From the NCBI GenBank assembly GCA_016845065.1, contig JAERTG010000175.1, positions 124,001 to 188,000 of the forward strand: a stretch of 64,000 bases of DNA. Reading direction: 5' to 3'. This DNA is from Fidelibacterota bacterium (GTDB taxonomy: Bacteria > Fidelibacterota > UBA8477 > JABMPR01). Of this stretch, positions 6,110 through 47,969 are shown piece by piece; the first letter of the stretch is position 1; each line of letters opens with the position of its first letter. A model generated the notes under the pieces. It was not told where the DNA came from. It searched no databases and was given only the letters and a program-made list of their open reading frames with translations. The position numbers were made by a program, and so were the translations under genes.

Positions 6110-6895
6110 TTACCCCGCGTTGTCTTCTCCACCATCAATACCAATCACATTACCTGTAATCCAGGTGCTCATAGAAGAAAAAGTGAGCACTGCATCGGCA
6201 ACATCCTCAGGTGTGGTAAGTCTGCCACCTGGATTCACCTGAAGAGCTCTGGCAATCATTTGCTCATTGCCTGGAATTTTTCTTAAGGCTGGTGTATCAG
6301 TTACACCGGCTCTCAGTGCATTAGCGGCAATATTTTTTGGAGCAAGCTCGAATGCAATTTGACGAGTATGAGCTTCCAAGGCAGCCTTAGCAGCAGAAAC
6401 GGCTCCATAATTTGGCCATGCTGTGTGTCCACCTGAGCTGGTCATACAGAATATGTGACCACCTTCTTTCATCAATTTGTGACCAACCACATCTTGAGTC
6501 CAATAGACCAGGGAGTGACCCATAACATCTAGAGTCATATCCATCTGGTTCTTGTGAACCACACCACCTTGACCAGGATTGAGAACAACCGGGAGGAGAG
6601 TACCAAAAGCCAGAGAGTGGATCATTACCTGAACCGTACCTGCCTCTTTGGCAAAGGTATCTTCCATAACTCGGATGGCTTCTTTTCTGGCACGAGTGTC
6701 AGCGGCATTAATGTTAAAGAAAACAGCTTTTGCCCCTGCAGATTCGATGTCTTCCTTGATAGTTTCAACATTGTGCATAGTTGCTTTTCGATCGAGGTGA
6801 ACCCCGAAAATATTATATCCATTGGCAGCCAGTTTTCGGGAGATGGCTCCACCGAATCCACTTGAAGCACCTAGTATTAATGCCCATTTCTGCAT
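6110..6895 (-). CDS. Short-chain dehydrogenase resembling enoyl-ACP reductase (FabI/FabL-like)
   Basis: NAD(P)-dependent short-chain dehydrogenase. The cofactor loop GASSGFGGAISRKLA lies at the N-terminus. The catalytic pair appears as Tyr-x6-Lys in PNYGAVSAAKAALE, the spacing of FabI/FabL enoyl-ACP reductases rather than the Tyr-x3-Lys of ordinary SDRs, and IHSLAFG also matches the FabI pattern. It may therefore catalyse the last step of the fatty-acid elongation cycle, though no other fab gene adjoins it. I chose the ATG at 6895 because AAAGGAAAG sits just upstream; an ATG at 6910 is also in frame. The upstream 470 bp are non-coding. Confidence 0.75.
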   Translation of the reverse strand: MQKWALILGASSGFGGAISRKLAANGYNIFGVHLDRKATMHNVETIKEDIESAGAKAVFFNINAADTRARKEAIRVMEDTFAKEAGTVQVMIHSLAFGTLLPVVLNPGQGGVVHKNQMDMTLDVMGHSLVYWTQDVVGHKLMKEGGHIFCMTSSGGHTAWPNYGAVSAAKAALEAHTRQIAFELAPKNIAANALRAGVTDTPALRKIPGNEQMIARALQVNPGGRLTTPEDVADAVLTFSSMSTWITGNVIGIDGGEDNAG

Positions 6896-6910
6896 AATCT
6901 TTCCTTTCAT

Positions 6911-7383
6911 AAGCCCCCATTAACTTGCGGAGAATATAGATTTGAATCTAAGCATGCAAAGCAGTATATCCATTATTCACAGGGTTAATAGTATCTCAGG
7001 AAAATCTAGAAAGCTTATTAAGCATATGCTGTAGATAGTCTCTAGCATCGAATCGTTTGGACACTATAAATAGAGTTAAAGTTCATATTAATAGTCATAT
7101 ACAGGCAGAATTGGCAAAGCATTGATTAAAATATTATGAATCTATAGCTATCCGCTAGCATTATTAAATAATCGTTTTTAGATACTCTATGACACATATG
7201 GGAGACATGAAGAATGAATGAAATCATACATGAACATACTTAGTATTGGACATATGTTTCAAACTCTCAGCCAAATGGGCTGATTAACTCTTTGTCATTG
7301 TGTTCTAAAACGATAACTTCCCAATATAAAGACCAGGTAAATCGGAATTAGGTTGATAAGTCTAATAAATTTGTGAAGGATAC
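6911..7383. other. Non-coding gap of about 470 bp
   Basis: AT-rich divergent spacer between the SDR gene (minus) and the VOC gene (plus). I see no convincing reading frame, tRNA or terminator. It contains a small palindrome TAGATT-TG-AATCTA (6937-6950), just upstream of the SDR gene, and a short hairpin TCAGCC/GGCTGA (7267-7283) with no T-run. It presumably holds promoters for both genes. Confidence 0.5.
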
Positions 7384-7776
7384 ATGCGAGCACACTTACG
7401 AATAGCACGACCAACCGACAATTTAAAGGAAATCGTGTTAATGTATCGCGATGGACTGGAATTTGCCATCCTGGGGGAGTTTGTGGATCATGATGGGTTT
7501 GATGGTGTGATGCTTGGAAACCAAGAGGCAGGATACCATCTTGAATTTACCAGCAAAAATGACCATTCTGCAGGTCGAGCTCCAACCAAGGAGCACTTGT
7601 TAGTTTTTTATTTGCCAAATAGAAATGAGTGGTCACGACTATGCAAATTGGCTGAAACTTCAGGATTTGAACCTGTGAACTCCTTTAATCCATATTGGGA
7701 TCATCGCGGGAAAACATTTGAAGATCTTGATGGCTATAGAATAGTACTTCAAAATGCAGACTGTGATGCGAATTAG
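7384..7776 (+). CDS. VOC (glyoxalase/bleomycin resistance) superfamily protein
   Basis: 130-residue protein with the paired beta-alpha-beta-beta-beta layout of the vicinal oxygen chelate fold: LRIARPTDNLKEIVLMYRDGL at the N-terminus and a closing FEDLDGYRIVLQ strand with a Glu that often binds metal. Potential metal ligands are His residues near 38, 53 and 60. Members include glyoxalases, dioxygenases and antibiotic-binding proteins, so the substrate is unknown. GAAGGAT just upstream supports the ATG. Its last 23 nt overlap the start of the GNAT gene, so the two are probably translated together. Confidence 0.75.
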   Translation: MRAHLRIARPTDNLKEIVLMYRDGLEFAILGEFVDHDGFDGVMLGNQEAGYHLEFTSKNDHSAGRAPTKEHLLVFYLPNRNEWSRLCKLAETSGFEPVNSFNPYWDHRGKTFEDLDGYRIVLQNADCDAN

Positions 7777-8185
7777 ATCTTACCGGTCATCGGATGAATC
7801 AACAGTCATAGATCTATGGCATAATTGTGATCTGATTCGTCCCTGGAATGACCCGAAAAAGGATATCCAACGAAAACTAGAAGTCCAGGGGGAGTGGTTC
7901 CTGGTTGGGTTACTTGATGATGAAATCGTGGCTTCTATCATGATTGGATATGATGGTCATCGCGGATGGGTGAATTACCTTGCAGTTGCCCCTGAATATC
8001 AAAGATTAGGGTTTGGTCGTGAAATGATGGCTGAAGCTGAGACCCTGCTTAGAAAATCGGGATGTCCGAAGCTCAATTTGCAGCTAAGAGATTCTAACAC
8101 TGAGGCTGTAATATTCTATCAGAAATTGGGATACAAAGTTGATGATGTGATTAGTTTTGGTAAACGACTCGAGTCAGATGAGTAA
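7754..8185 (+). CDS. GNAT family N-acetyltransferase, YpeA-like
   Basis: 143-residue acetyltransferase of the GCN5-related family, which uses acetyl-CoA to acetylate an amine. The acetyl-CoA loop appears as QRLGFGREMM (the R/Q-x-x-G-x-G/A motif, near residue 92), preceded by the strand VNYLAVAPEY. The N-terminal LWHNCDLIRPWNDPKKDI segment closely resembles E. coli YpeA. The start may instead be the ATG four codons later (7766). It overlaps the VOC gene in another frame. Substrate unknown. Confidence 0.82.
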   Translation: MQTVMRIRSYRSSDESTVIDLWHNCDLIRPWNDPKKDIQRKLEVQGEWFLVGLLDDEIVASIMIGYDGHRGWVNYLAVAPEYQRLGFGREMMAEAETLLRKSGCPKLNLQLRDSNTEAVIFYQKLGYKVDDVISFGKRLESDE

Positions 8186-8272
8186 GTTGTCAGGTTCATT
8201 GACCCGTGGGGGGTAAAATCAATAGTAATCGGAAATACCCATAAATAACCTTTGTTATGCCCATTCTTAAGT

Positions 8273-9235
8273 TCATAACTCAAACAACCTGCCCTGCCAG
8301 GTATCTCTGTGATTCATTTCCAGATCCATGAGGTGTGTAAGCTTAGGAATGTTGTAACCCCAGCGTGGGGCGATGAGGATATCATCGGGGGCATCTCCAA
8401 ACAAACGCTGGATAACTATATTGGGGTCCAATCTTTCAAGTATGTCCGCAACCAGCTCGATGTATTCATCTGCCTGGAATAAAGGGAAGGGTTCATCTTT
8501 ATAACGCTTGGCTAGAACTGTTCCTTTAACAACATGGAGTTGATGAATCTTCAGAAAATCTAGGTCTAGATCATTTGCAGCCACACCGGTCTCCAGCATC
8601 ATTTCATTAGTTTCAACTGGAAACCCCAAAATGATATGGCCAGCGACTTTAATCCCATATTGTTTGGTTAATTCGACAGCCTTGATGACTGACTCGTAAT
8701 CATGTCCACGATTCATCCAATTCAAGGTTTTATCGTGAATTGACTCAATACCGTATTCCAGAGTAACCTGGACTTTCTCATTCAAGCCAGCGAGATACTC
8801 CAATAATGGTTCATCAATACAATCACTCCTGGTACCGATATCCAGTCCAACGACATTGGGATAATTAACGGCCTCTTCGTACATACGTTTCAATTTATCC
8901 AGTTCATCATAGGTGTTTGAGTATGCCTGGAAATAAGCGATGTACTTCTGAACATCATAGCGATCAATCATGAATGGGATGGAAGCTTCCATTTGTAGGG
9001 GAATGGACATGTCCTTATTTATGTAGTGGGGGACAAAACTGTCATTATTGCAGTATACACAGCCGCCCCTGCCTTTTGATCCATCACGATTTGGACAGGT
9101 AAATCCGCCATGAAGAGAAACCTTGCGGATTTTCTCACCATAGGTCTTCTGCAGGTAAAAATTATAGTTATGGTAACGTCTGTTTAACCAGATTTTTACT
9201 TGATTTCCCGCATCAGTTGTTGAATTTGCACTCAT
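8273..9235 (-). CDS. TIGR01212/YhcC-family radical SAM protein
   Basis: Radical S-adenosylmethionine protein of 320 residues. Its iron-sulfur cluster motif is the spaced form CPNRDGSKGRGGCVYC (three Cys), characteristic of the YhcC/TIGR01212 family instead of the usual CxxxCxxC. GLDIGTRSDC, LEYGIESIHDKTL and HIILGFPVET are further family signatures. The reaction is not established for the family. It is convergent with the GNAT gene, with about 90 nt of spacer lacking a clear terminator, and is divergent from the next gene. Confidence 0.88.
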   Translation of the reverse strand: MSANSTTDAGNQVKIWLNRRYHNYNFYLQKTYGEKIRKVSLHGGFTCPNRDGSKGRGGCVYCNNDSFVPHYINKDMSIPLQMEASIPFMIDRYDVQKYIAYFQAYSNTYDELDKLKRMYEEAVNYPNVVGLDIGTRSDCIDEPLLEYLAGLNEKVQVTLEYGIESIHDKTLNWMNRGHDYESVIKAVELTKQYGIKVAGHIILGFPVETNEMMLETGVAANDLDLDFLKIHQLHVVKGTVLAKRYKDEPFPLFQADEYIELVADILERLDPNIVIQRLFGDAPDDILIAPRWGYNIPKLTHLMDLEMNHRDTWQGRLFEL

Positions 9236-9322
9236 GGTTGTATTTAACCCCGATCACCGCGAAACAGTACTTTTTTTCAAGAGGAATTCGATGGAAATTC
9301 CGATCCTCAGGAGCATTCCTAT

Positions 9323-10240
9323 ATGTCATTAATCTACCGCTTAGTTTTTGTTTTAATCATGATTACTGGTTTGGTCGGGCAGAACAAAATCGTTGAAATA
9401 AAACACAAAGATATTGATGAACAAAGCGCTATCATCAAAAGCCAAACCTATGATAATGTCTATTGGTTATGTAACGACTCAGGTGATAAGCCCTTCATAT
9501 TTCCTGTGACAGAAAAAGGCGAAATGATAGTACCTGATTTTATGAAAAAACGGTACCTGGGAAAGAAACTTGATGATTATCCAGGTATCAAGATTAAAAA
9601 TTCCAGCCTCATCGATTGGGAAGCCATGGCAGTATTGAAGGACACGCTGGTCATTGGTGATGTAGGCAACAATGGAAATACAAGACGAGATTTGGGAGTC
9701 TACATTATTCCTGAGCCCAATCCCAGGGCGACTTATGAAACCCGCCCATTACTCTGGTTGCCAGTGCGCTATGAGGATCAACACGAGTATCCAGCAGATG
9801 AGTGGGAATTCGATTGTGAGGCCATTTTCACGTTTCAGGGTAAAATATATTTCCTTACAAAGCACAGGGCAGATAGACACATCAGGAAGCCTGCCCCAGG
9901 CACGAAACTCTATAGAATGGATACCCGTTTCACCAATAAGGTCAATGTACTGAAGCTAGTCAATCGCATAGATGACCTGGGTGGTTGGGTGACAGATGCC
10001 AGTATGGCTCAGGATGAATCGGCTATGGTGTTAATCGCACAAAACCCGTTGGCAACCATTGTTTGGTACTTTCCTAAACCCAAACGAGGTGATGATTTTT
10101 TTGCTCAAACACCCCGGAGCTATAGTCTTGTTAAGGCAGATCAGGCCGAAGGAGTATGCTTTAAGGATCCCCAGACAATTATTGTGAGTAACGAACAGCG
10201 GGAATGGTTTGAAATTCCACTCTCAGCTTTTAGTAAATAG
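9323..10240 (+). CDS. Secreted hypothetical protein, propeller-like
   Basis: 305 residues with an N-terminal signal peptide (hydrophobic 5-18, cleavage probably after GLVG). I recognise no named domain. The pattern of a Trp-x-x-Asn-Asp-Ser-Gly repeat (WLCNDSG), DWEAMAV, GDVGNNGNTRRDLGVY and later EGVCF resembles a family of secreted beta-propeller proteins common in Bacteroidetes. Acidic and aromatic residues repeat at about 45-60 residue intervals, consistent with propeller blades. It probably acts in the periplasm or outside the cell. CAGGAGC gives a good ribosome site. The M1 aminopeptidase gene follows after 19 nt. Confidence 0.6.
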   Translation: MSLIYRLVFVLIMITGLVGQNKIVEIKHKDIDEQSAIIKSQTYDNVYWLCNDSGDKPFIFPVTEKGEMIVPDFMKKRYLGKKLDDYPGIKIKNSSLIDWEAMAVLKDTLVIGDVGNNGNTRRDLGVYIIPEPNPRATYETRPLLWLPVRYEDQHEYPADEWEFDCEAIFTFQGKIYFLTKHRADRHIRKPAPGTKLYRMDTRFTNKVNVLKLVNRIDDLGGWVTDASMAQDESAMVLIAQNPLATIVWYFPKPKRGDDFFAQTPRSYSLVKADQAEGVCFKDPQTIIVSNEQREWFEIPLSAFSK

Positions 10241-10259
10241 AATTAGTCAAGGACATGAA

Positions 10260-12806
10260 ATGAAATACGAACATCTCTCTCATCGCAATCATTACAAATC
10301 GGGTGATTTCACACTAAGTGGAGCCACTAAAAATTATGCTCCTGATCTCCAATTGGAACCGGTTCATACGGAGGTGCATCTAACAGTTGATCTGAATCAG
10401 AAATCAGCCGCTGGACATGCATTAATTACTCTGCGAGCAAACGTGGACGGACAACACTCAATAAAATTGGATGCAGTTGATTTTGAGGGTGTGAAGGTTC
10501 AGGACGCGAGTGGAAAGGGCTTGGACTCCTCATATAATGATTTGACCATCAATTTGCATTTTGATCAACCCTTTACTGTAAATGAAGAATGTGTAATCCG
10601 AGTAGAGTATAGCATTCAGGATCCCATTTCAGGACTTCAGTTTTTTGCACCAGATGAAAACCGACGCGAATTCCCCTTTTATGCTATTACAGATAATGAG
10701 ACAGAGCGGGCCAGATATTGGTTTCCTTGCGTAGATTTTCCTACGGTTCGTTCAAAAATGGAATATTTCCTCACGGCAGATGAAAAACTAATCGCGCTAG
10801 CAAACGGGGCTCTGATATCTGAGGAAACCAAGGATGGAATGAAGACTTCCCATTGGAAATTGGATTACCCATGCCCCAGTTATCTCGCCTGTTTTGCCAT
10901 TGGTGAATTTTCTGTTTATGAGGACGAACCACTCAGGGATATGCCCATCGCATATTTTGCTGACAAGTCCTATACGCCAAAGCAGCTTCAACGCACTTTC
11001 GAGCCCACCCGCAAAATGCTGATCTGGATGGAGAAAAAACTTGATATGGCGTTTCCCTATCCAAAATATTTCCAAATCGCCGGGAGAGAAGTTGGTGGTG
11101 CAATGGAAAATATTTCGCTTGTATCCTGGGATGACAAATTCATGCTTGATGAGACCATGGCGAAGGAATGGAAATACATCATGGATCTGATCAACGTCCA
11201 TGAAATGTCCCATTCATATTTTGGAGACGCTGTCGTATCCTATGATTTTGCCCATGTCTGGCTTAAAGAGAGCTGGGCGACTTATATCGAGTCGGTGTGG
11301 CTGGAAGATTCAGATGGCATCGATGCCATGCACTGGCAGCTCGCTGAAGAAGCTCGGAGTTATATAGGTGAAGCCAAGAATGACTATGTACGTCCTATCA
11401 TCACAAGAGAATACGATCACAGTTGGAATATGTTTGATATGCATCTTTATCCTGGTGGTGCCTGGCGATTGCATATGTTACGTCACCTTGTTGGTGATGA
11501 CAAGTTCTGGGCAGGTGTTCAGGAATATGTGAACACATACGCGGCTCGGACTGTGAAATCCCTTGATTTTCAACGATGTATAGAAAATCGTTCCGGGTTG
11601 AATCTTGATAGTTTCTTTGATATGTGGTTTCGTTCGAAAGGATATCCCATCCTGAAAGCAAGTTTTGAATTTGATAAGAAAAAAGGACAAGGACAATTTA
11701 CTTTTGAGCAGACTCAGGTCGATGCCAAAAGGGGAATAGAGCTCTTTGATTTTGATCTCGAGGTTGGTTGGCAAGACAGTAAGGGTCTTGATCATATCGA
11801 AAATGTCCATCTCACTAAGGGCACCCAAATTGTAAAAATCAAAATGAGTGAACCTGCACAATTAATCCTTGATCCAAACATGAAGGCACTCTTTGAGGCA
11901 GAATTTAACCCTGGAGATGACAAGCTACGCCACCTCCTGGGAAATGGTAAGACGGTCCGCGGGCTAATGCAGGCCATGAGTGAATTAGCCAAGACTGGGA
12001 AACGAAAAAACCTACAGACCATCCGTGAATATCTAAAAAAAGAGAAGCGTTGGGGTCTCAGAATCCATGCTTATCGCTCTCTTGCCACAGTGGGAAATGC
12101 CTATGCATATACTCATCTCGCAGAACTACTGCCTCTTGAATCCGATCCAATGGTCATTGAAGAAGCTGCCAGAGCATGTGGTGCTCATCGTAACGATGCT
12201 ATGAGGGAAGCTATTCTCTCAAAATTGAAAGCTAAAGATCTCCCATATAGGGGAGAGATGGCTCTCCTGGAAAGTCTAGGAAAACAACGCAACGCTGATG
12301 ACATCCCTCTATTAACTGCCTATGCTAAAAAGGATGGCTGGCGGAATCTGGTCCGCGCAGGAGCTTTCCTCGGGTTGGCTGCCAGTCGCTATGAAGCCGC
12401 CTTAGAAGTCCTCCTGGATGGCATGGATGACCCAGTTCAGTTTTACGATGAAAAAATAGCCAGGGTTATGGCTCTGACATCCATGAAGGATTGGATGGCA
12501 CCCCATCTCCAAAAACAAATTACACAGGCAATTTGTACAGCCACAGAAGATCCCAGCTACCCTGTTCAAATTAATGCCGCCAGAGGCTTGGGGGCTGCAA
12601 AGGAAAATGCTGGGATTCCATTCCTGATTGCCCTTCAATCCCGATTGGCAGTACAGGATCACCCTCTCGTCAAACGTCAACTCCAGGCAATTCAAGCCTC
12701 AAGTGATGGTACTGAGACGAAGAAACTACAGAAGCAACTGGATGAGCTTGCTGAAAAGTTAGGCGGTCTGGAAAAACGACTTCAGGAGGTTGAACCTGAA
12801 AAATAG
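10260..12806 (+). CDS. M1 family metalloaminopeptidase with C-terminal HEAT-like repeats
   Basis: Zinc aminopeptidase of 848 residues that removes N-terminal residues from peptides. The exopeptidase motif GGAMENIS (near residue 277) and the zinc site HEMSH (314-318) followed 18 residues later by the Glu of LKESW are all present, so it should be active. The last 250 residues form alpha-helical repeats of the HEAT/armadillo kind (EEAARACGAHRNDAM, INAARGLGAAKENAG) ending in a short coiled coil. No signal peptide is evident. I chose the ATG at 10260, preceded by AAGGAC; an upstream TTG at 10209 would overlap the previous gene and has no ribosome site. Confidence 0.93.
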   Translation: MKYEHLSHRNHYKSGDFTLSGATKNYAPDLQLEPVHTEVHLTVDLNQKSAAGHALITLRANVDGQHSIKLDAVDFEGVKVQDASGKGLDSSYNDLTINLHFDQPFTVNEECVIRVEYSIQDPISGLQFFAPDENRREFPFYAITDNETERARYWFPCVDFPTVRSKMEYFLTADEKLIALANGALISEETKDGMKTSHWKLDYPCPSYLACFAIGEFSVYEDEPLRDMPIAYFADKSYTPKQLQRTFEPTRKMLIWMEKKLDMAFPYPKYFQIAGREVGGAMENISLVSWDDKFMLDETMAKEWKYIMDLINVHEMSHSYFGDAVVSYDFAHVWLKESWATYIESVWLEDSDGIDAMHWQLAEEARSYIGEAKNDYVRPIITREYDHSWNMFDMHLYPGGAWRLHMLRHLVGDDKFWAGVQEYVNTYAARTVKSLDFQRCIENRSGLNLDSFFDMWFRSKGYPILKASFEFDKKKGQGQFTFEQTQVDAKRGIELFDFDLEVGWQDSKGLDHIENVHLTKGTQIVKIKMSEPAQLILDPNMKALFEAEFNPGDDKLRHLLGNGKTVRGLMQAMSELAKTGKRKNLQTIREYLKKEKRWGLRIHAYRSLATVGNAYAYTHLAELLPLESDPMVIEEAARACGAHRNDAMREAILSKLKAKDLPYRGEMALLESLGKQRNADDIPLLTAYAKKDGWRNLVRAGAFLGLAASRYEAALEVLLDGMDDPVQFYDEKIARVMALTSMKDWMAPHLQKQITQAICTATEDPSYPVQINAARGLGAAKENAGIPFLIALQSRLAVQDHPLVKRQLQAIQASSDGTETKKLQKQLDELAEKLGGLEKRLQEVEPEK

Positions 12807-27494: not shown

Positions 27495-29303
27495 CTACAT
27501 CAGAAATGACTTGATTGAGCCACTTATCTGTGCTTCGGAATATTTCTTAACGTCAAAGACTTTGTAATCTAATCCCCACTTGGCGATGACGGCATCAAGA
27601 AGACTCGGCCGCACCGTCCAAATCATCCTTCTTTTACTCTTAACCAGTTCATTCATACAGATTCCCCAGCCCTCATCCTTCAATTCGAGGTGTCCAATTT
27701 CATCGATTATGACGATATTCCCTGATAGCTGCGGAGGAATTGAATTCAAGATTTTACATCCAAAATCAAGCCCAGGACGTCTAAAATTAAAAGGTCCAGC
27801 CTGCCATTCTGATACAGGTCCCGATCTCTCACACAGGAGTTCAGATGCTTGACTTCTAATATCAACGATCCGATAGGCATCTCTTTCATTCTCAACCCAA
27901 TCACCTATTGAATAAAAGCCATGAATATCAATTCCTTCTAAACTCTCATTCTCTATAATTGATTTAATCATGTTGGTTTTGCCATCACCAGAATTGCCAG
28001 TTAAAATGATGACTCTGGGATTATCCGAATGATGCTCCACCCGAAGATCTTCAAGTGCGGCAAGTAATTGACTCAAGGTTTGGAATGGATGTCGCCAGAT
28101 ACCATCGATTTCAGAAACACGTTTCAGGAGTTGTGGTAAAACTTCAAACGCCAGGGAAATGGAATCAAAGAGTACACCCATCCCGATGCGAGTAAACCAA
28201 TCTATGATTCGGGGATTTCGCATCTCAATACTAAGGGCTGAAAACGCAAAAATTACCAGCAATGCCCTGATCGCCATTGAGATACCGGTTTCAAGTCCAA
28301 TAAGTAACGAAGCGACACTATCCCACCCTCCTAGCAGGAGCCCGGACAAAGCCATCATGGCAATAAGCTGGATCCAGAGCTGGGGTCGTTTCAAACGTTT
28401 TAATGATCTGTTATACCTGAAGATGTTAACAGTGACATAGGCGATGACCAGAAACCCTCCGAGTGGAATCGAAAAATCACTGAGATAAGTGAGGCCCAGG
28501 ATAAGGATTATCAGATTAAACATGAGGAGAAGCACGGAATATGGCTGTCTAGCTGAAGCTACCAGGAGGCTTTCCTGATTGGAGGATGTTTCAAGTTTTG
28601 TATCGGGAAAGGAAATTGATTTCTGAGATCGGATATTTCTATACGATAGCCCCGCCACCAATGCGCCGAAGCTTAAATCAATGATGAATATGGCTCGGAC
28701 TAGATCAAAAGGAGCATCGCCCTCAAATCCAAAACTTCTTGATGCCATAAAATAGAGTTGCTCATAAAGCTTGATGAAATCAGGACCATAGGTCATGAGG
28801 AGGACAAATATTTTTTGAAATAGGCTCCATGAAACTGCTATAGCACCTCCCAGCACAAAGCCAGGCCACTTCCCCCGAAATAGCCGCACAAATAATTCCA
28901 GGATCACGCCTTCCATAAAGATACCAATCATGGGTCCAAAGATGATGGCTGAGGGAGATATGGATTTCATTGTGGCAGTAACAAGAGCAGTCCGCCAAAA
29001 TAATCCTTTGACTGGCCATAACTTGTAGCCATTGATCATGAGAATCAATCCTACTGAAGCCAGAAAGGTTCCCGAAAAGGGGATATGTAAATTATGGAGA
29101 AAACTACCCAGGATGATTTCAATGGAAGCCCAAAGACTACCTAACATAGCAGCCTTAAGCCAGGTGTCAGGTAAAACCTTGCGGTTCCTTTGTGCAGCCC
29201 CTAAAGGGCTATGATCCTTCATACTAGATTCATTGAAGGATGAATATTTTGTTTCAACATGACTTCTCTTTCCAAATACGGGAGCTGATTTCCTCATTTC
29301 CAA
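27495..29303 (-). CDS. Three-part fusion: ECF-type S-like and T-like membrane domains plus THEP1-like NTPase
   Basis: 602 residues, three regions. Residues 45-225 are about six hydrophobic helices (LGSLWASIEIILGSFLHNL, then FGPMIGIFMEGVILELF) resembling a substrate-binding S component of energy-coupling-factor vitamin transporters. Residues 255-420 form further helices ending in SISLAFEVLPQLLKRVSEID, which looks like the EcfT/CbiQ coupling region. Residues 430-602 are a P-loop NTPase with Walker A GNSGDGKT (436-443) and Walker B IVIIDEIGHLEL, like THEP1 nucleoside triphosphatases, not an ABC ATPase (no LSGGQ). Role unknown; a transporter energised by an unusual NTPase is one reading. Starts at TTG 29303 or ATG 29297; ATG 29222 is also possible. 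Confidence 0.65.
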   Translation of the reverse strand: MEMRKSAPVFGKRSHVETKYSSFNESSMKDHSPLGAAQRNRKVLPDTWLKAAMLGSLWASIEIILGSFLHNLHIPFSGTFLASVGLILMINGYKLWPVKGLFWRTALVTATMKSISPSAIIFGPMIGIFMEGVILELFVRLFRGKWPGFVLGGAIAVSWSLFQKIFVLLMTYGPDFIKLYEQLYFMASRSFGFEGDAPFDLVRAIFIIDLSFGALVAGLSYRNIRSQKSISFPDTKLETSSNQESLLVASARQPYSVLLLMFNLIILILGLTYLSDFSIPLGGFLVIAYVTVNIFRYNRSLKRLKRPQLWIQLIAMMALSGLLLGGWDSVASLLIGLETGISMAIRALLVIFAFSALSIEMRNPRIIDWFTRIGMGVLFDSISLAFEVLPQLLKRVSEIDGIWRHPFQTLSQLLAALEDLRVEHHSDNPRVIILTGNSGDGKTNMIKSIIENESLEGIDIHGFYSIGDWVENERDAYRIVDIRSQASELLCERSGPVSEWQAGPFNFRRPGLDFGCKILNSIPPQLSGNIVIIDEIGHLELKDEGWGICMNELVKSKRRMIWTVRPSLLDAVIAKWGLDYKVFDVKKYSEAQISGSIKSFLM

Positions 29304-29574
29304 GAAAACCGTGTCGGTCTCAGATCATATCCATAAAGAACTTAGATCCTTTGACTAGGAGATTAATGTTTTTAAAAATTGAAAACCTACAATATTATAA
29401 AAAGCTTGATAAATCTAAGGTAGGATTGCACTGATCAAAATATTTCAAACACAATGGAAGATTAATTCTTCTGCTCGACTTGAATGGGAGTGCAAAATTT
29501 TTGTTGAATACCGTGTTTGGCAGAATTTATGCACACCAGTAGATGTACAAAATAATCAAACGAAGGAGACATAA

Positions 29575-31837: not shown

Positions 31838-34195
31838 ATGCGATATTACTATAAATGTTTTCTTTTTCTGATGTTAACCCTTGCCTCGCTCTCTACGGTG
31901 TTTGGTCAAAAAAACTCTGGTAGGATAAACGGATTTCTGAGAGATGCAGAGACGGGTGAGCCATTGCTCTATGCGAACGTTAGCTTGAAAAATTCAGGTA
32001 TTGGTGCCGCCACAAACAATACAGGATACTACATCATCACGAACATCCCTGCTGGAAACTATACGCTCCAGATCATGATGATGGGCTATGAAAGAACTGA
32101 GAAGGAAATCTCAGTGGTTGGAGGTTTGGAGGAGCGTCATGATTTTGAAATCAAGCCTGCTTCAATCGAAGGGGAGGAGGTAATTGTCACCGGTGACAGA
32201 CAGCGCTTTGAAAAAGAGATCGAAGTGAGTGCTGTAAGCCTGAGTATGCGTGATGTGAAAACCATGCCTGCATTTGTTGAGGCAGATATTTTTAGGACAA
32301 TTCAACTACTTCCTGGTGTGCAAGCCTCTAGCGATTTTTCCTCTGCTTTAGTTGTTAGGGGAGGTAGTCCTGACGAAAACCTCATCATGCTTGATGGAAT
32401 CGAAATCTATAACCCCTTTCATCTCGGAGGAGTGTTTTCAACCTTTAATGCTGATGCTATCGCAGATGCTGAATTTCTTGCTGGTGGTTTCCCCGCAAAG
32501 TATGGGAATCGCATATCCTCGGTGCTGAGTATTACTGGCAGGGAGGGTAATTCAAAAAACCATAAACTTTTCAAGGATAAAAAGCTGGGTCAATTTGTTG
32601 ATGTGAGCCAGGTTCGTGGTGAAGTAAACCTTTTAAGTTCTAAACTCCTTGCTGAAGGACCACTCTACAGGGGATCCTGGATGCTGTCAGGTCGTAGGAC
32701 TTACTTCGATCAAGTCGCCCGATTGTACTACTGGTACAATGATGAGCCTATGGAATGGAAGTATTACTTCTACGATGTCCAAGGGAAAATAGTCCAGAAC
32801 ATTAACTCCACGAACCAACTGATTTTGTCTCATTATGCTGGCCAGGATAAGATTTCTTTTGATCTAGGTCGATCTGATAACGAGGTGAATTTCAACTGGG
32901 ATTGGGGAAATACTACTAATAGCGCCCTATGGCGTTGGATCCCCAACTCCAAAGTCGTTTCCAAGTTGTCCTTTGCTAATACAAGCTATGAGTTCGATGT
33001 GAATATGGAGCTTACTGCTACTGATACTTCAGGACAGTCATCTTCCACCAGCTTTGTCATTTTTAACAAAATTGACGACTGGACATTGAAGGAAAGTCTC
33101 GAGTTTTTTATCTCCAATGAACACACCTTTACCACGGGTCTCGAAATAAAGGATCTTGGAATTGATTTTGAATTGGCACAGGGGGATCAAAAGCTGTTGG
33201 ACCAACACCAGAAAAATATGATCTACAGTGGGATTGTGCAGGAACGCTGGCAGCCAAATCCGGTTATCATGATGCAAACGGGGCTGAGAATCTCAAAATA
33301 CTCAGCACATGATAATCTCTACTATGAGCCAAGATTGGGTTTCAAATATTTACTCTCCACAAATATCGCATTAAAAGGAGCTTGGGGTAAATACAATCAG
33401 TTTCTCTTCACAGCTCAGGATGAGGATGCAATTTTGAGTATTGTGGATTTTTGGAATCCCATTCCTGAAAATTACAAAGCTAAATCGGTGGAACATTTTA
33501 TTCTTGGTATTGAGCAGTGGATAGGTGAAGGCTGGTTTACTAGTCTCGAAGGGTATTATAAACCTTACTCAAATACTCTTGTTATTAACCCCAATCAAAA
33601 TTTTTTAAACCAGGATGATGACTATACAGAGGGTACTGCTGAAATCTATGGCGCTGAGGTCCTGTTAAAGAAAAACAGTGGAAAACTGACGGGGTGGTTG
33701 GGTTATTCATATATGAAAAGTACTCAGAATTTCGATTTTAACGGTGATGGAGACATAATTGAGAGCGATGGAGAAATCTACAGCTCAAAATATGACCAGC
33801 CCCATAGTTTGAATTTGGTAGTCAATTACGCCCTGAATAAAAAAAACTCATTTGGTCTCACGGTGACCAATAGCAGTTCCAACCTGTACACCCCAACAGT
33901 TGGCTCAGTTTACACCCAGAATGGTGCCTTTGAATTGGCAAATCCTTACACCAATCAAACTGACTTAATGGGAACGAGAAACTCAGCTCGTTATCCAGAT
34001 TATTTCCGAATGGACGTGAGTTATTCAAGGCAGATCACTCCATTTGGGATTGATGGATTGTTTAAAATCCAGGTTATTAACACCACAAATCATTTTAATA
34101 CCTTTGTCTACAATTGGGATTTTGAAGCTGGTACTGTTGAAGGTATTGGCATGTTTCCCTTCTTTCCCACATTTGGCATCGAGTTCAAATTATAG
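31838..34195 (+). CDS. TonB-dependent outer-membrane receptor with CarboxypepD_reg-like domain
   Basis: 785 residues with a signal peptide (cleavage after VFGQ, near 24). Residues 28-112 form the carboxypeptidase-regulatory-like beta-sandwich (GRINGFLRDAETGEPLLYAN, GYYIITNIPAGNYTL). The plug domain follows at about 125-235 (LLPGVQAS, VVRGGSPDENLIMLDGIEIYNP split by the NPFHLGGVFSTFN segment), then a beta-barrel to the C-terminal Phe-Lys-Leu. It moves an unknown ligand through the outer membrane using TonB energy. The lipoprotein encoded next starts at the very next base, suggesting a receptor/lipoprotein pair. Confidence 0.93.
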   Translation: MRYYYKCFLFLMLTLASLSTVFGQKNSGRINGFLRDAETGEPLLYANVSLKNSGIGAATNNTGYYIITNIPAGNYTLQIMMMGYERTEKEISVVGGLEERHDFEIKPASIEGEEVIVTGDRQRFEKEIEVSAVSLSMRDVKTMPAFVEADIFRTIQLLPGVQASSDFSSALVVRGGSPDENLIMLDGIEIYNPFHLGGVFSTFNADAIADAEFLAGGFPAKYGNRISSVLSITGREGNSKNHKLFKDKKLGQFVDVSQVRGEVNLLSSKLLAEGPLYRGSWMLSGRRTYFDQVARLYYWYNDEPMEWKYYFYDVQGKIVQNINSTNQLILSHYAGQDKISFDLGRSDNEVNFNWDWGNTTNSALWRWIPNSKVVSKLSFANTSYEFDVNMELTATDTSGQSSSTSFVIFNKIDDWTLKESLEFFISNEHTFTTGLEIKDLGIDFELAQGDQKLLDQHQKNMIYSGIVQERWQPNPVIMMQTGLRISKYSAHDNLYYEPRLGFKYLLSTNIALKGAWGKYNQFLFTAQDEDAILSIVDFWNPIPENYKAKSVEHFILGIEQWIGEGWFTSLEGYYKPYSNTLVINPNQNFLNQDDDYTEGTAEIYGAEVLLKKNSGKLTGWLGYSYMKSTQNFDFNGDGDIIESDGEIYSSKYDQPHSLNLVVNYALNKKNSFGLTVTNSSSNLYTPTVGSVYTQNGAFELANPYTNQTDLMGTRNSARYPDYFRMDVSYSRQITPFGIDGLFKIQVINTTNHFNTFVYNWDFEAGTVEGIGMFPFFPTFGIEFKL

Positions 34196-35347
34196 GTGAT
34201 GATGATGAGAATATTTTACTATATAGCAACCAGGTTGATCAATCTTTTTTTGATTCCCATTTCCATCATATTTGTCCAATCGTGTACCGAAGAGCTAAGT
34301 ATTGCGGACTTTGCCGATGACTTCAAGAATTATGAGCAAGAGCTACGGATTGAAGGAGTCTTGAACTTAAGTGATTTTTCTGAATCAGTAATACGAGTGG
34401 ATAAAACTATTCTGGTAACTGATACCAGCCTTTACAACGGTATTGATGATAATGGTGACTGGGAAACTTTCTCTGATATAAACGGAAATGGTGTCTGGGA
34501 TGAAGGGGAACCTCTGAATGATGATATTGGGATCAAACAGCCTGGTCCAAATGATGTATACGAAGGTCGCGGGAATGGGATAGCTGATCCAGGTGAGCCA
34601 CATGTTGACGATTACATCGAAATTTTACCGCAAATTCATGATGCAACACTTCAGTCTGTTGTATTGAGGGAAACAGCAAGCCAGACTTTGATAGCTGAGT
34701 TTATATGGTCTGATAGTGCCGCCTGTTTTGATGAGGGTTTTGGAGATCAGGGTCCACCTTCTGAAATTGCTGAGGCGACTTTCATCAGATATTACTATGG
34801 TGGCTATGTTCCTGATGACAATTGGCAAGATGTTGAATTGACAGTTGGGACTGAATACACAGTCGAACTGACTACGTCAGATGGCCGTATTATTTCTGCA
34901 ACTACCACTACAGTGGCACCTCCCCTCAATATTGAATGGCCAGAAACAACTCAAGACGTCGATACCATCATCGTCACCAAAAATAATTATGCCTCCCTGA
35001 GCTGGAATACACCAATTGAGACGAATTTTTGTGGTGTTATCATGGATGAAGTGTTCCCTGGTGATTCCCTGCGAAGTTTTTATTCCAGTATGGCAGTGGC
35101 AATCAATCTGGACCAGGAAACCGGACTCCCACATTATCCCGCTAATTTCGTAGGTATCCCTTTGGGTCTCTATAAACTTTCAATTGAGTCCTATAGTTAC
35201 AATTATGGTAATTATGTGTATTCCGGGCTACCACTGAGAGATAGGGCACTTTCTAATTGGCGGGATGAAGCGGGAATTGTTGTACTGGGTGCTCTTGGAG
35301 CAAAGGCTCCAATTGATCTTTATCTCCGTTTTGTCGCAGCTGATTAA
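34196..35347 (+). CDS. Surface lipoprotein partnered with the TonB-dependent receptor (DUF4249-like)
   Basis: 383 residues; signal peptide ending in the lipobox FVQSC. Residues 75-135 contain acidic Gly/Asn repeats, DINGNGVWDEGEP and GRGNGIADPGEP, resembling calcium-binding loops. The C-terminal half is beta-rich (TVELTTSDGRIISATTTT). Order and size match the DUF4249 lipoproteins encoded directly after TonB-dependent receptors in Bacteroidetes, but the sequence match is loose. It starts at a GTG directly after the receptor stop and is followed by three ATG codons, so the exact start is uncertain. Overlaps the opposing epmA-like gene by 4 nt. Confidence 0.65.
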   Translation: MMMMRIFYYIATRLINLFLIPISIIFVQSCTEELSIADFADDFKNYEQELRIEGVLNLSDFSESVIRVDKTILVTDTSLYNGIDDNGDWETFSDINGNGVWDEGEPLNDDIGIKQPGPNDVYEGRGNGIADPGEPHVDDYIEILPQIHDATLQSVVLRETASQTLIAEFIWSDSAACFDEGFGDQGPPSEIAEATFIRYYYGGYVPDDNWQDVELTVGTEYTVELTTSDGRIISATTTTVAPPLNIEWPETTQDVDTIIVTKNNYASLSWNTPIETNFCGVIMDEVFPGDSLRSFYSSMAVAINLDQETGLPHYPANFVGIPLGLYKLSIESYSYNYGNYVYSGLPLRDRALSNWRDEAGIVVLGALGAKAPIDLYLRFVAAD

Positions 35348-47437: not shown

Positions 47438-47855
47438 AAATGGGTGGATTGGGCAGTCGCCTGGCATAAGCTGGGAGGAAAGTCCGGACTCCGCAGGACA
47501 GATTGCCCATGTTAGGAGCATGGGGCTCTACTCCAGGGTAGAGATGGAAAGTGCCACAGAAAAGATACCGCCTTTCTGCGTTATTCAGCCTTGATACTTC
47601 AGGACTGAATAACGCAGAGGGGTAAGGGTGAAAACGTGAGGTAAGAGCTCACGCCGGTGTTAGGCAACTGATGCTGAGGGTAAACCCCAATTGGAGCAAT
47701 TTCAAGCAGAAGAGCTTGGTCGTCCGCCATTCACTGCAAGGTGAAACTCTTCGGGTAGGAAGCTAGTATCTCTATGCAAATGGAGGTCCAGATCAATGGC
47801 TGCCTCACTCTCTTCGGAGGGTAAGACAGAATCCGGCTTATAGATCCACCCATTT
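47438..47855 (+). ncRNA. rnpB: RNase P RNA (bacterial class A)
   Basis: The catalytic RNA that trims tRNA 5' ends. The outer helix P1 is a perfect 12-bp match between AAATGGGTGGAT (47438-47449) and ATCCACCCATTT (47844-47855). Conserved segments are GAGGAAAGTCCGGACTCC near 47476, AGGGTGAAAACGTGAGGTAAGAGCTC-type P10/P11 sequence around 47625-47652, and ACAGAATCCGGCTTATAGA near the 3' end. Length about 418 nt is normal. Lies between the zinc-ribbon gene and recJ. Confidence 0.95.
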
Positions 47856-47969
47856 ATTTGCCTACCACTGGCACCAACCAGTCTCAAATGTTGTGATATC
47901 AGGTTAAAACAAAGACGTTTTTACCGTGAATTAATCCAATCTGAAGCTTATACTATAGACCAATTAATT

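Follow-up and report, generated by a model that had tools for sequence, protein, structure and literature searches.

Background

Energy-coupling factor (ECF) transporters consist of an S component, the coupling protein EcfT and two EcfA ABC ATPases, and we know of no ECF S family for the molybdenum cofactor (Moco) or for molybdopterin (MPT). The known proteins of the THEP1 type are soluble. In the known pathway of Moco synthesis MoaE turns cPMP into MPT, and the known members of the Moco riboswitch family (RF01055) control genes for Moco synthesis, for molybdenum or tungsten uptake, or for molybdoenzymes. Molybdenum and tungsten transporters are listed among the functions under RNA control (PMC3766115), and a MOT1-type gene of Caldithrix abyssi has a Moco RNA 1130 nt upstream of it (PMC5317091). 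One census of molybdenum utilization found Moco enzymes but less than a full Moco pathway in 292 bacteria that lack nitrogenase and in another 13 that possess it; these "orphan" molybdoenzymes were left unexplained, and the Marinimicrobia were listed as having no molybdenum trait (PMC6147048). Research on how C. elegans uses Moco from its diet likewise treats the route by which Moco crosses cell membranes as an open question (PMC9793310). Our literature search, with most subscription journals outside its coverage, returned no report of Moco import by a bacterium and none of a THEP1-driven transporter.

Here we analyze a gene from a 64,000-nucleotide stretch of DNA of an uncultured marine bacterium (the window, meaning the whole of that stretch) and its relatives in other genomes. 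We think it rather likely that these genes encode an ECF-like importer that salvages MPT or finished Moco and in which a THEP1 NTPase replaces the ABC ATPases. In what follows, S, T and N stand for the S-like, T-like and NTPase parts, wherever they are encoded, and the handles beginning with L, G and C are our own labels for loci, genomes and contigs, respectively.

The fusion gene, its riboswitch and its probable start

The open reading frame of 602 codons at 27495-29303 (-) that was named in a preliminary description of this DNA is present, and the Walker A (GNSGDGKT) and Walker B motifs claimed for it are confirmed in the sequence. The features of the locus are these, with residues numbered on the frame as originally called:

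27495..29222, minus strand: main gene from its corrected, probable start (codons 28-602 of the called frame), S-T-NTPase fusion protein of 575 aa
28620..29174, minus strand: S-like membrane domain, called residues 44-228, from alignments, PF09819 in relatives and the fold match to 5edl
28014..28586, minus strand: T-like membrane domain, called residues 240-430, from alignment and weak CbiQ matches in relatives
27546..28010, minus strand: THEP1-type NTPase domain, called residues 432-586, PF03266 NTPase_1
27975-27998, minus strand: Walker A GNSGDGKT, called residues 436-443
27693-27713, minus strand: Walker B VIIDEIG, called residues 531-537
29219..29260, minus strand: putative leader ORF of 13 codons, MLKQNIHPSMNLV followed by a stop, from the sequence and the ATGA overlap in relatives
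29249..29373, minus strand: Moco (molybdenum/tungsten cofactor) riboswitch aptamer, RF01055, 43.9 bits over the full model (1-135)

The fusion is a real gene. A search of genome contigs found relatives of its product encoded at 14 loci; within the genus, across which the fusion is conserved, the proteins are 60-84% identical over their full length, and the gene keeps an acetyl-CoA synthetase gene on one side and a rubrerythrin gene on the other. In most of the homologous loci the gene is also adjoined by a large protein with CarboxypepD_reg domains, TonB-receptor-like by appearance (31838-35347 (+) in the window), and by its 383-aa downstream partner. Elsewhere in the window are a bacterial RNase P class A RNA at 47441-47856 (+), scoring 245.6 bits, and a Peptidase M1 with HEAT repeats at 10209-12806 (+).

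The leader of the fusion gene scores above the 36-bit cut-off of RF01055, as does the same place upstream of 10 of 11 further fusion-gene loci in the Neomarinimicrobiota. Moco riboswitches also stand at the head of gene groups in which the parts are arranged differently: a TonB-S-S-TN group (L047, 70 bits), Bacteroidota groups with the order S-T-TonB-N (L121-L123, at 53-70 bits) and KSB1 groups of the S or S-N type (L143, L144, L146 and L148, at 75-82 bits). In all, the regions searched hold 19 matches to RF01055, every one of them heading an S gene or its gene group, and no riboswitch of another class was found in those regions. When the 19 RNAs from the three phyla are aligned, 16 of the 23 predicted pairs show two-sided changes that keep the pair.

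The riboswitch in the window overlaps the TTG at which the frame had been called to begin, and that start is wrong: since the RNA covers 29249-29373 (-), the first called residues fall within regulatory RNA. At the 3' end of the riboswitch lies AAAGAGAAG, which resembles a ribosome-binding site; the leader ORF begins after it, with the ATG at 29260, and its TGA overlaps, as ATGA, a second ATG (29222) that is in frame with the main gene. The same overlap, with leaders of 13-24 codons, occurs in L002-L005, L009, L010, L012 and L015, giving this coupling of leader to main gene at 9 of the 12 loci compared; among those 12, the leader is joined in frame to the main gene in L006 and L007, and L008 has no ATGA overlap. 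Upstream of the corresponding ATG the frame is closed in L002 and L003. Translation probably starts at the ATG at 29222, and because of the position of the riboswitch, the closed frame in two relatives and the ATGA overlap, the fusion protein is probably 575 aa long.

The NTPase and the two membrane domains

PF03266 (NTPase_1) matches the NTPase domain with an E value of 6.4e-15 and 55.8 bits, above the curated Pfam cut-off of 23.9, in support of the THEP1-like domain that had been proposed; the NCBI equivalog model NF010248 reaches 54.8 bits, below its cut-off of 156. The proposed absence of an ABC signature agrees with a Pfam scan of the fusion protein in which no ABC-transporter model matched at E values up to 10.

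Within the fusion group the S domain has two strongly conserved stretches in the alignments, GSFLHN and MKSISPS..I.GPM.GIFME. Six of 30 members of the S family match PF09819 (best E 1.7e-4), whose annotation is for the permease component of an ABC-type system that transports cobalt and which we take to be an ECF S family. An AlphaFold model of the domain (pLDDT 85, pTM 0.79) has as its first Foldseek match in the PDB an ECF S component, 5edl, with a probability of 0.97, TM scores of 0.55/0.52 and an E value of 0.57; the other 49 of the 50 matches listed have probabilities of 0.16 or less. A sequence search of the PDB with the S profile gave no match, and an NCBIfam scan of S gave no informative family. 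For the T domain, CbiQ matches 2 of 25 members weakly (best E 8.6e-4) and matches seven further stand-alone T proteins not at all or with E near 0.5; its model (pLDDT 75, pTM 0.60) found no match in a fold search of the PDB, and the matches of the T profile in a PDB sequence search looked like chance and were dropped. Given the PF09819 and 5edl matches, the N-terminal block is probably ECF-like, as had been suggested, though its likeness is moderate, and we treat the weak likeness of the second block to EcfT as a lead, since its CbiQ matches come with no fold match.

Relatives of the fusion protein in three phyla and beyond

A profile of the membrane part matches 39 of 245 Neomarinimicrobiota genomes, and an S profile matches 32 of 346 genomes in the Bacteroidota and 21 of 82 in the KSB1 phylum. 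The fusion form is carried by most genomes of the source genus, in which one genome (G241) has been placed that has a split form (L060). In other genera S has a gene to itself (about 200 aa), and the gene that follows or overlaps it encodes T joined to the NTPase (about 370 aa); an Acidobacteria metagenome-assembled genome (MAG) encodes the membrane part and the NTPase as two ORFs that overlap by 7 bases. The parts occur as S-T-N, S-T, S|T|N, N-S-T or N-S, or as S followed by an N gene; T is detectable in some of the last kind and not in others, and at several KSB1 loci S and N are present with no T detected. Fused, split and reordered, these forms point to one putative machine, and a single functional unit is supported both by the conservation of the fusion and by the relatives in which neighboring genes encode these parts.

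In a tree of the S domain the fused forms of three phyla, together with Acidobacteria and Bacteroidales members, make up one group (98/97) that stands apart from the other S proteins of Neomarinimicrobiota, a grouping that suggests transfer between phyla. Two loci deserve separate mention. L047 has a second, very divergent S-like protein (7061-7642), without the usual motifs, between its TonB receptor and its S gene, and in L011, from a KSB1 MAG, a TonB-receptor-like gene, a methyltransferase-like gene and an S-T-N fusion follow nearly back to back (6890-11854), with no Moco riboswitch above the cut-off.

Molybdenum genes beside S and Moco synthesis across genomes

The preliminary description had looked to nearby vitamin genes for the context of the protein, and had overlooked the riboswitch, the relatives with split genes and the molybdenum connection; the context is instead one of Moco riboswitches and molybdoenzyme genes. 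A gene for a molybdoenzyme, MobA, MoeA or MobB lies within the fetched stretch at 30 of 59 S loci, to be read against an informally expected level of a few per cent (with 0-5 PF00384 genes per genome). These neighbors include NapA-like, polysulfide-reductase-like and xanthine-dehydrogenase-like enzymes as well as MobA-like proteins, MoeA and MobB. S shares its gene group with a TonB receptor in L047 and L148. A DUF4213/DUF364 protein, described as "putative heavy-metal chelation", adjoins S in a xanthine-dehydrogenase gene group (L063, 3238-3963).

Across genomes, the S module and the genes of Moco synthesis avoid each other. MoaC was found in 2 of 39 S-carrying Neomarinimicrobiota versus 76 of 206 without S (p 2e-5), in 3 of 21 versus 29 of 61 KSB1 genomes (p 0.006) and in 11 of 32 versus 197 of 314 Bacteroidota (p 0.002), these and the following p value being from Fisher tests that treat genomes, among them many incomplete MAGs, as independent and ignore shared ancestry; that the trend is the same in three phyla is a stronger point than the p values. 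MoaE is found in none of 63 carriers and in 13 of 16 MoaC-containing genomes without S, and among MoaC-containing genomes alone the counts are 0 of 7 with S versus 13 of 16 without (p 5e-4). A molybdopterin-oxidoreductase match (PF00384) occurs in 22 of 28 S-carrying Neomarinimicrobiota, and MoeA in two of the 28. The cross-genome survey covered MoaC, MoaE, MoeA, ModA and the PF00384 oxidoreductases.

Molybdopterin oxidoreductases with cofactor-binding domains number at least three in the source genome; one of them, on a 194-kb contig, is polysulfide-reductase-like and has neighbors of the polysulfide-reductase type. The genome gave no match to MoaC, MoaE or ModA (TIGR01256). It is one of the two MoeA-positive genomes just counted, but we rejected this MoeA as its own: it is encoded on two 4.4-kb contigs about 88% alike (L174 and L175; C123 and C126), which are likely contamination of the MAG because their MoeA is closer to a Bacteroidota MoeA (56-57% identical) than to those of Neomarinimicrobiota (about 29-34%), a question that the sorting-domain gene beside it does not decide.

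The loss of synthesis is not absolute, since some genomes (G230, G247, G395 and G632) carry S yet keep MoaA, MoaC and MoeA, and the moa clusters of G230 and G632 include a MOT1-type molybdate transporter. Clusters of the form moaA - MOT1-like - moaC - moeA are seen at L164, L165, L169 and L173, in genomes with no MoaE match. Some KSB1 genomes that lack MoaC have kept MoeA beside S (L142 and L143).

What the system may import

The simplest account of this distribution is that the cofactor is taken up after the MoaE step. The data show the parts and their conservation, the homology of the riboswitch, the surrounding genes and the complementary distribution of S and Moco synthesis; from these we infer transport, its substrate, the action of the riboswitch and the NTPase as motor. 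In the importer that we favor, the pterin would be bound within the membrane by the S-like domain and coupled by the T-like domain to the cytoplasmic THEP1-type NTPase, and the NTP cycle of the latter would drive release, the task of the two ABC ATPases in ECF transporters; the NTPase may instead have a trapping or chaperone role. In several relatives the TonB-dependent receptor of the same gene group would take the cofactor across the outer membrane, and Moco, when plentiful in the cell, would lower translation by binding the riboswitch and thereby shutting off the leader's ribosome-binding site. Cells without Moco synthesis could in this manner run molybdoenzymes of the nitrate, polysulfide and xanthine types. 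As to the form imported, MoeA beside S in L142 and L143 suggests import of metal-free MPT there, and the loss of MoeA from most carriers among the Neomarinimicrobiota suggests import of finished Moco. A stronger version of the proposal is that, in lineages belonging to several phyla, Moco synthesis has given way to a dedicated route by which bacteria take up finished Moco as a vitamin, with a THEP1-type NTPase instead of ABC ATPases supplying the drive; on this we are closely divided and lean slightly toward doubt. Free Moco is unstable (PMC9793310), for which reason an outside supply of it is not obvious.

Other readings have to be set against these observations. Were molybdate or tungstate imported and Moco synthesized in the cell, whether by known enzymes or by unknown ones, the riboswitch would be where it is known from other genomes, at genes of Moco synthesis and of molybdate/tungstate uptake. 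We nevertheless regard this as unlikely, because with MoaC missing from most carriers and MoaE from all of those tested, molybdate alone would be useless by known pathways, and because the two carriers whose moa clusters include MOT1 already have a transporter for it. The lack of any ModA above cut-off in the 28 S-carrying Neomarinimicrobiota tested might seem to favor molybdate uptake; it says little, since the MoaC-containing Neomarinimicrobiota without S that were tested also lack ModA, and we dropped the argument. A still earlier stage of the pathway, such as cPMP, or some other pterin might be imported and converted to MPT, the first steps having been lost along with MoaC, but that conversion is the work of the very enzyme absent from 63 of 63 carriers, which makes this reading very unlikely.

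It is also conceivable, though in our judgment quite unlikely, that the protein is no transporter but a Moco chaperone or sensor, bound to the membrane and driven by NTP, which loads membrane-associated molybdoenzymes or matures them: the neighboring enzymes are often of a periplasmic or membrane-bound type (NapA-like, polysulfide-reductase-like) and the NTPase is not an ABC ATPase, but this reading would leave unexplained both the absence of Moco synthesis from the carriers and the TonB receptors encoded in these gene groups. Finally, three Bacteroidota fusions of the form N-S(-T) (L126, L129 and L132) have no molybdenum gene nearby and may carry another substrate. To extend this to the whole family, so that it would carry an unrelated vitamin and owe its molybdenum link to lineage or chance, strikes us as highly improbable, given that S loci of three phyla have Moco riboswitches and that about half of the S loci (30/59) have molybdenum genes nearby.

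If the proposal of a cofactor importer is true, it would explain the published "orphan" molybdoenzymes, reveal a way for Moco to cross membranes and offer a genetic handle on that passage, imply the sharing of a cofactor within microbial communities and add a type of membrane transporter energized by a P-loop NTPase that is not of the ABC kind.

Comparison with known systems

The preliminary description's reading of the protein, as ECF-S-like, EcfT-like and THEP1-like NTPase parts forming an unusual transporter, is partly supported and a good fit to what we find, with molybdenum taking the place of its vitamin context. The fusion protein likely works like an ECF transporter; we do not file it as one because the scan of it gave no match to the ABC ATPases by which such transporters are defined. 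As in those transporters, S-like and T-like membrane proteins and a cytoplasmic nucleotidase are encoded together, but here the nucleotidase is of the THEP1 type in place of the two ABC ATPases (EcfA and EcfA'), all three parts are in one chain, and the likeness of S and T to their ECF counterparts is sub-threshold. With THEP1 proteins it shares an above-cut-off NTPase_1 domain (PF03266) with both Walker motifs, from which it differs in that the domain is fused to, or adjoins, membrane blocks. The ModABC and MOT1 molybdate transporters would likewise serve molybdenum supply, but no sequence relation to them was seen, and MOT1 was met only inside moa clusters. Finally, an above-cut-off riboswitch in the leader of the fusion gene is what the Moco-riboswitch regulons (RF01055) have in common with this locus, the difference being that what it precedes here is a putative uptake system, and that most of the genomes concerned lack Moco synthesis.
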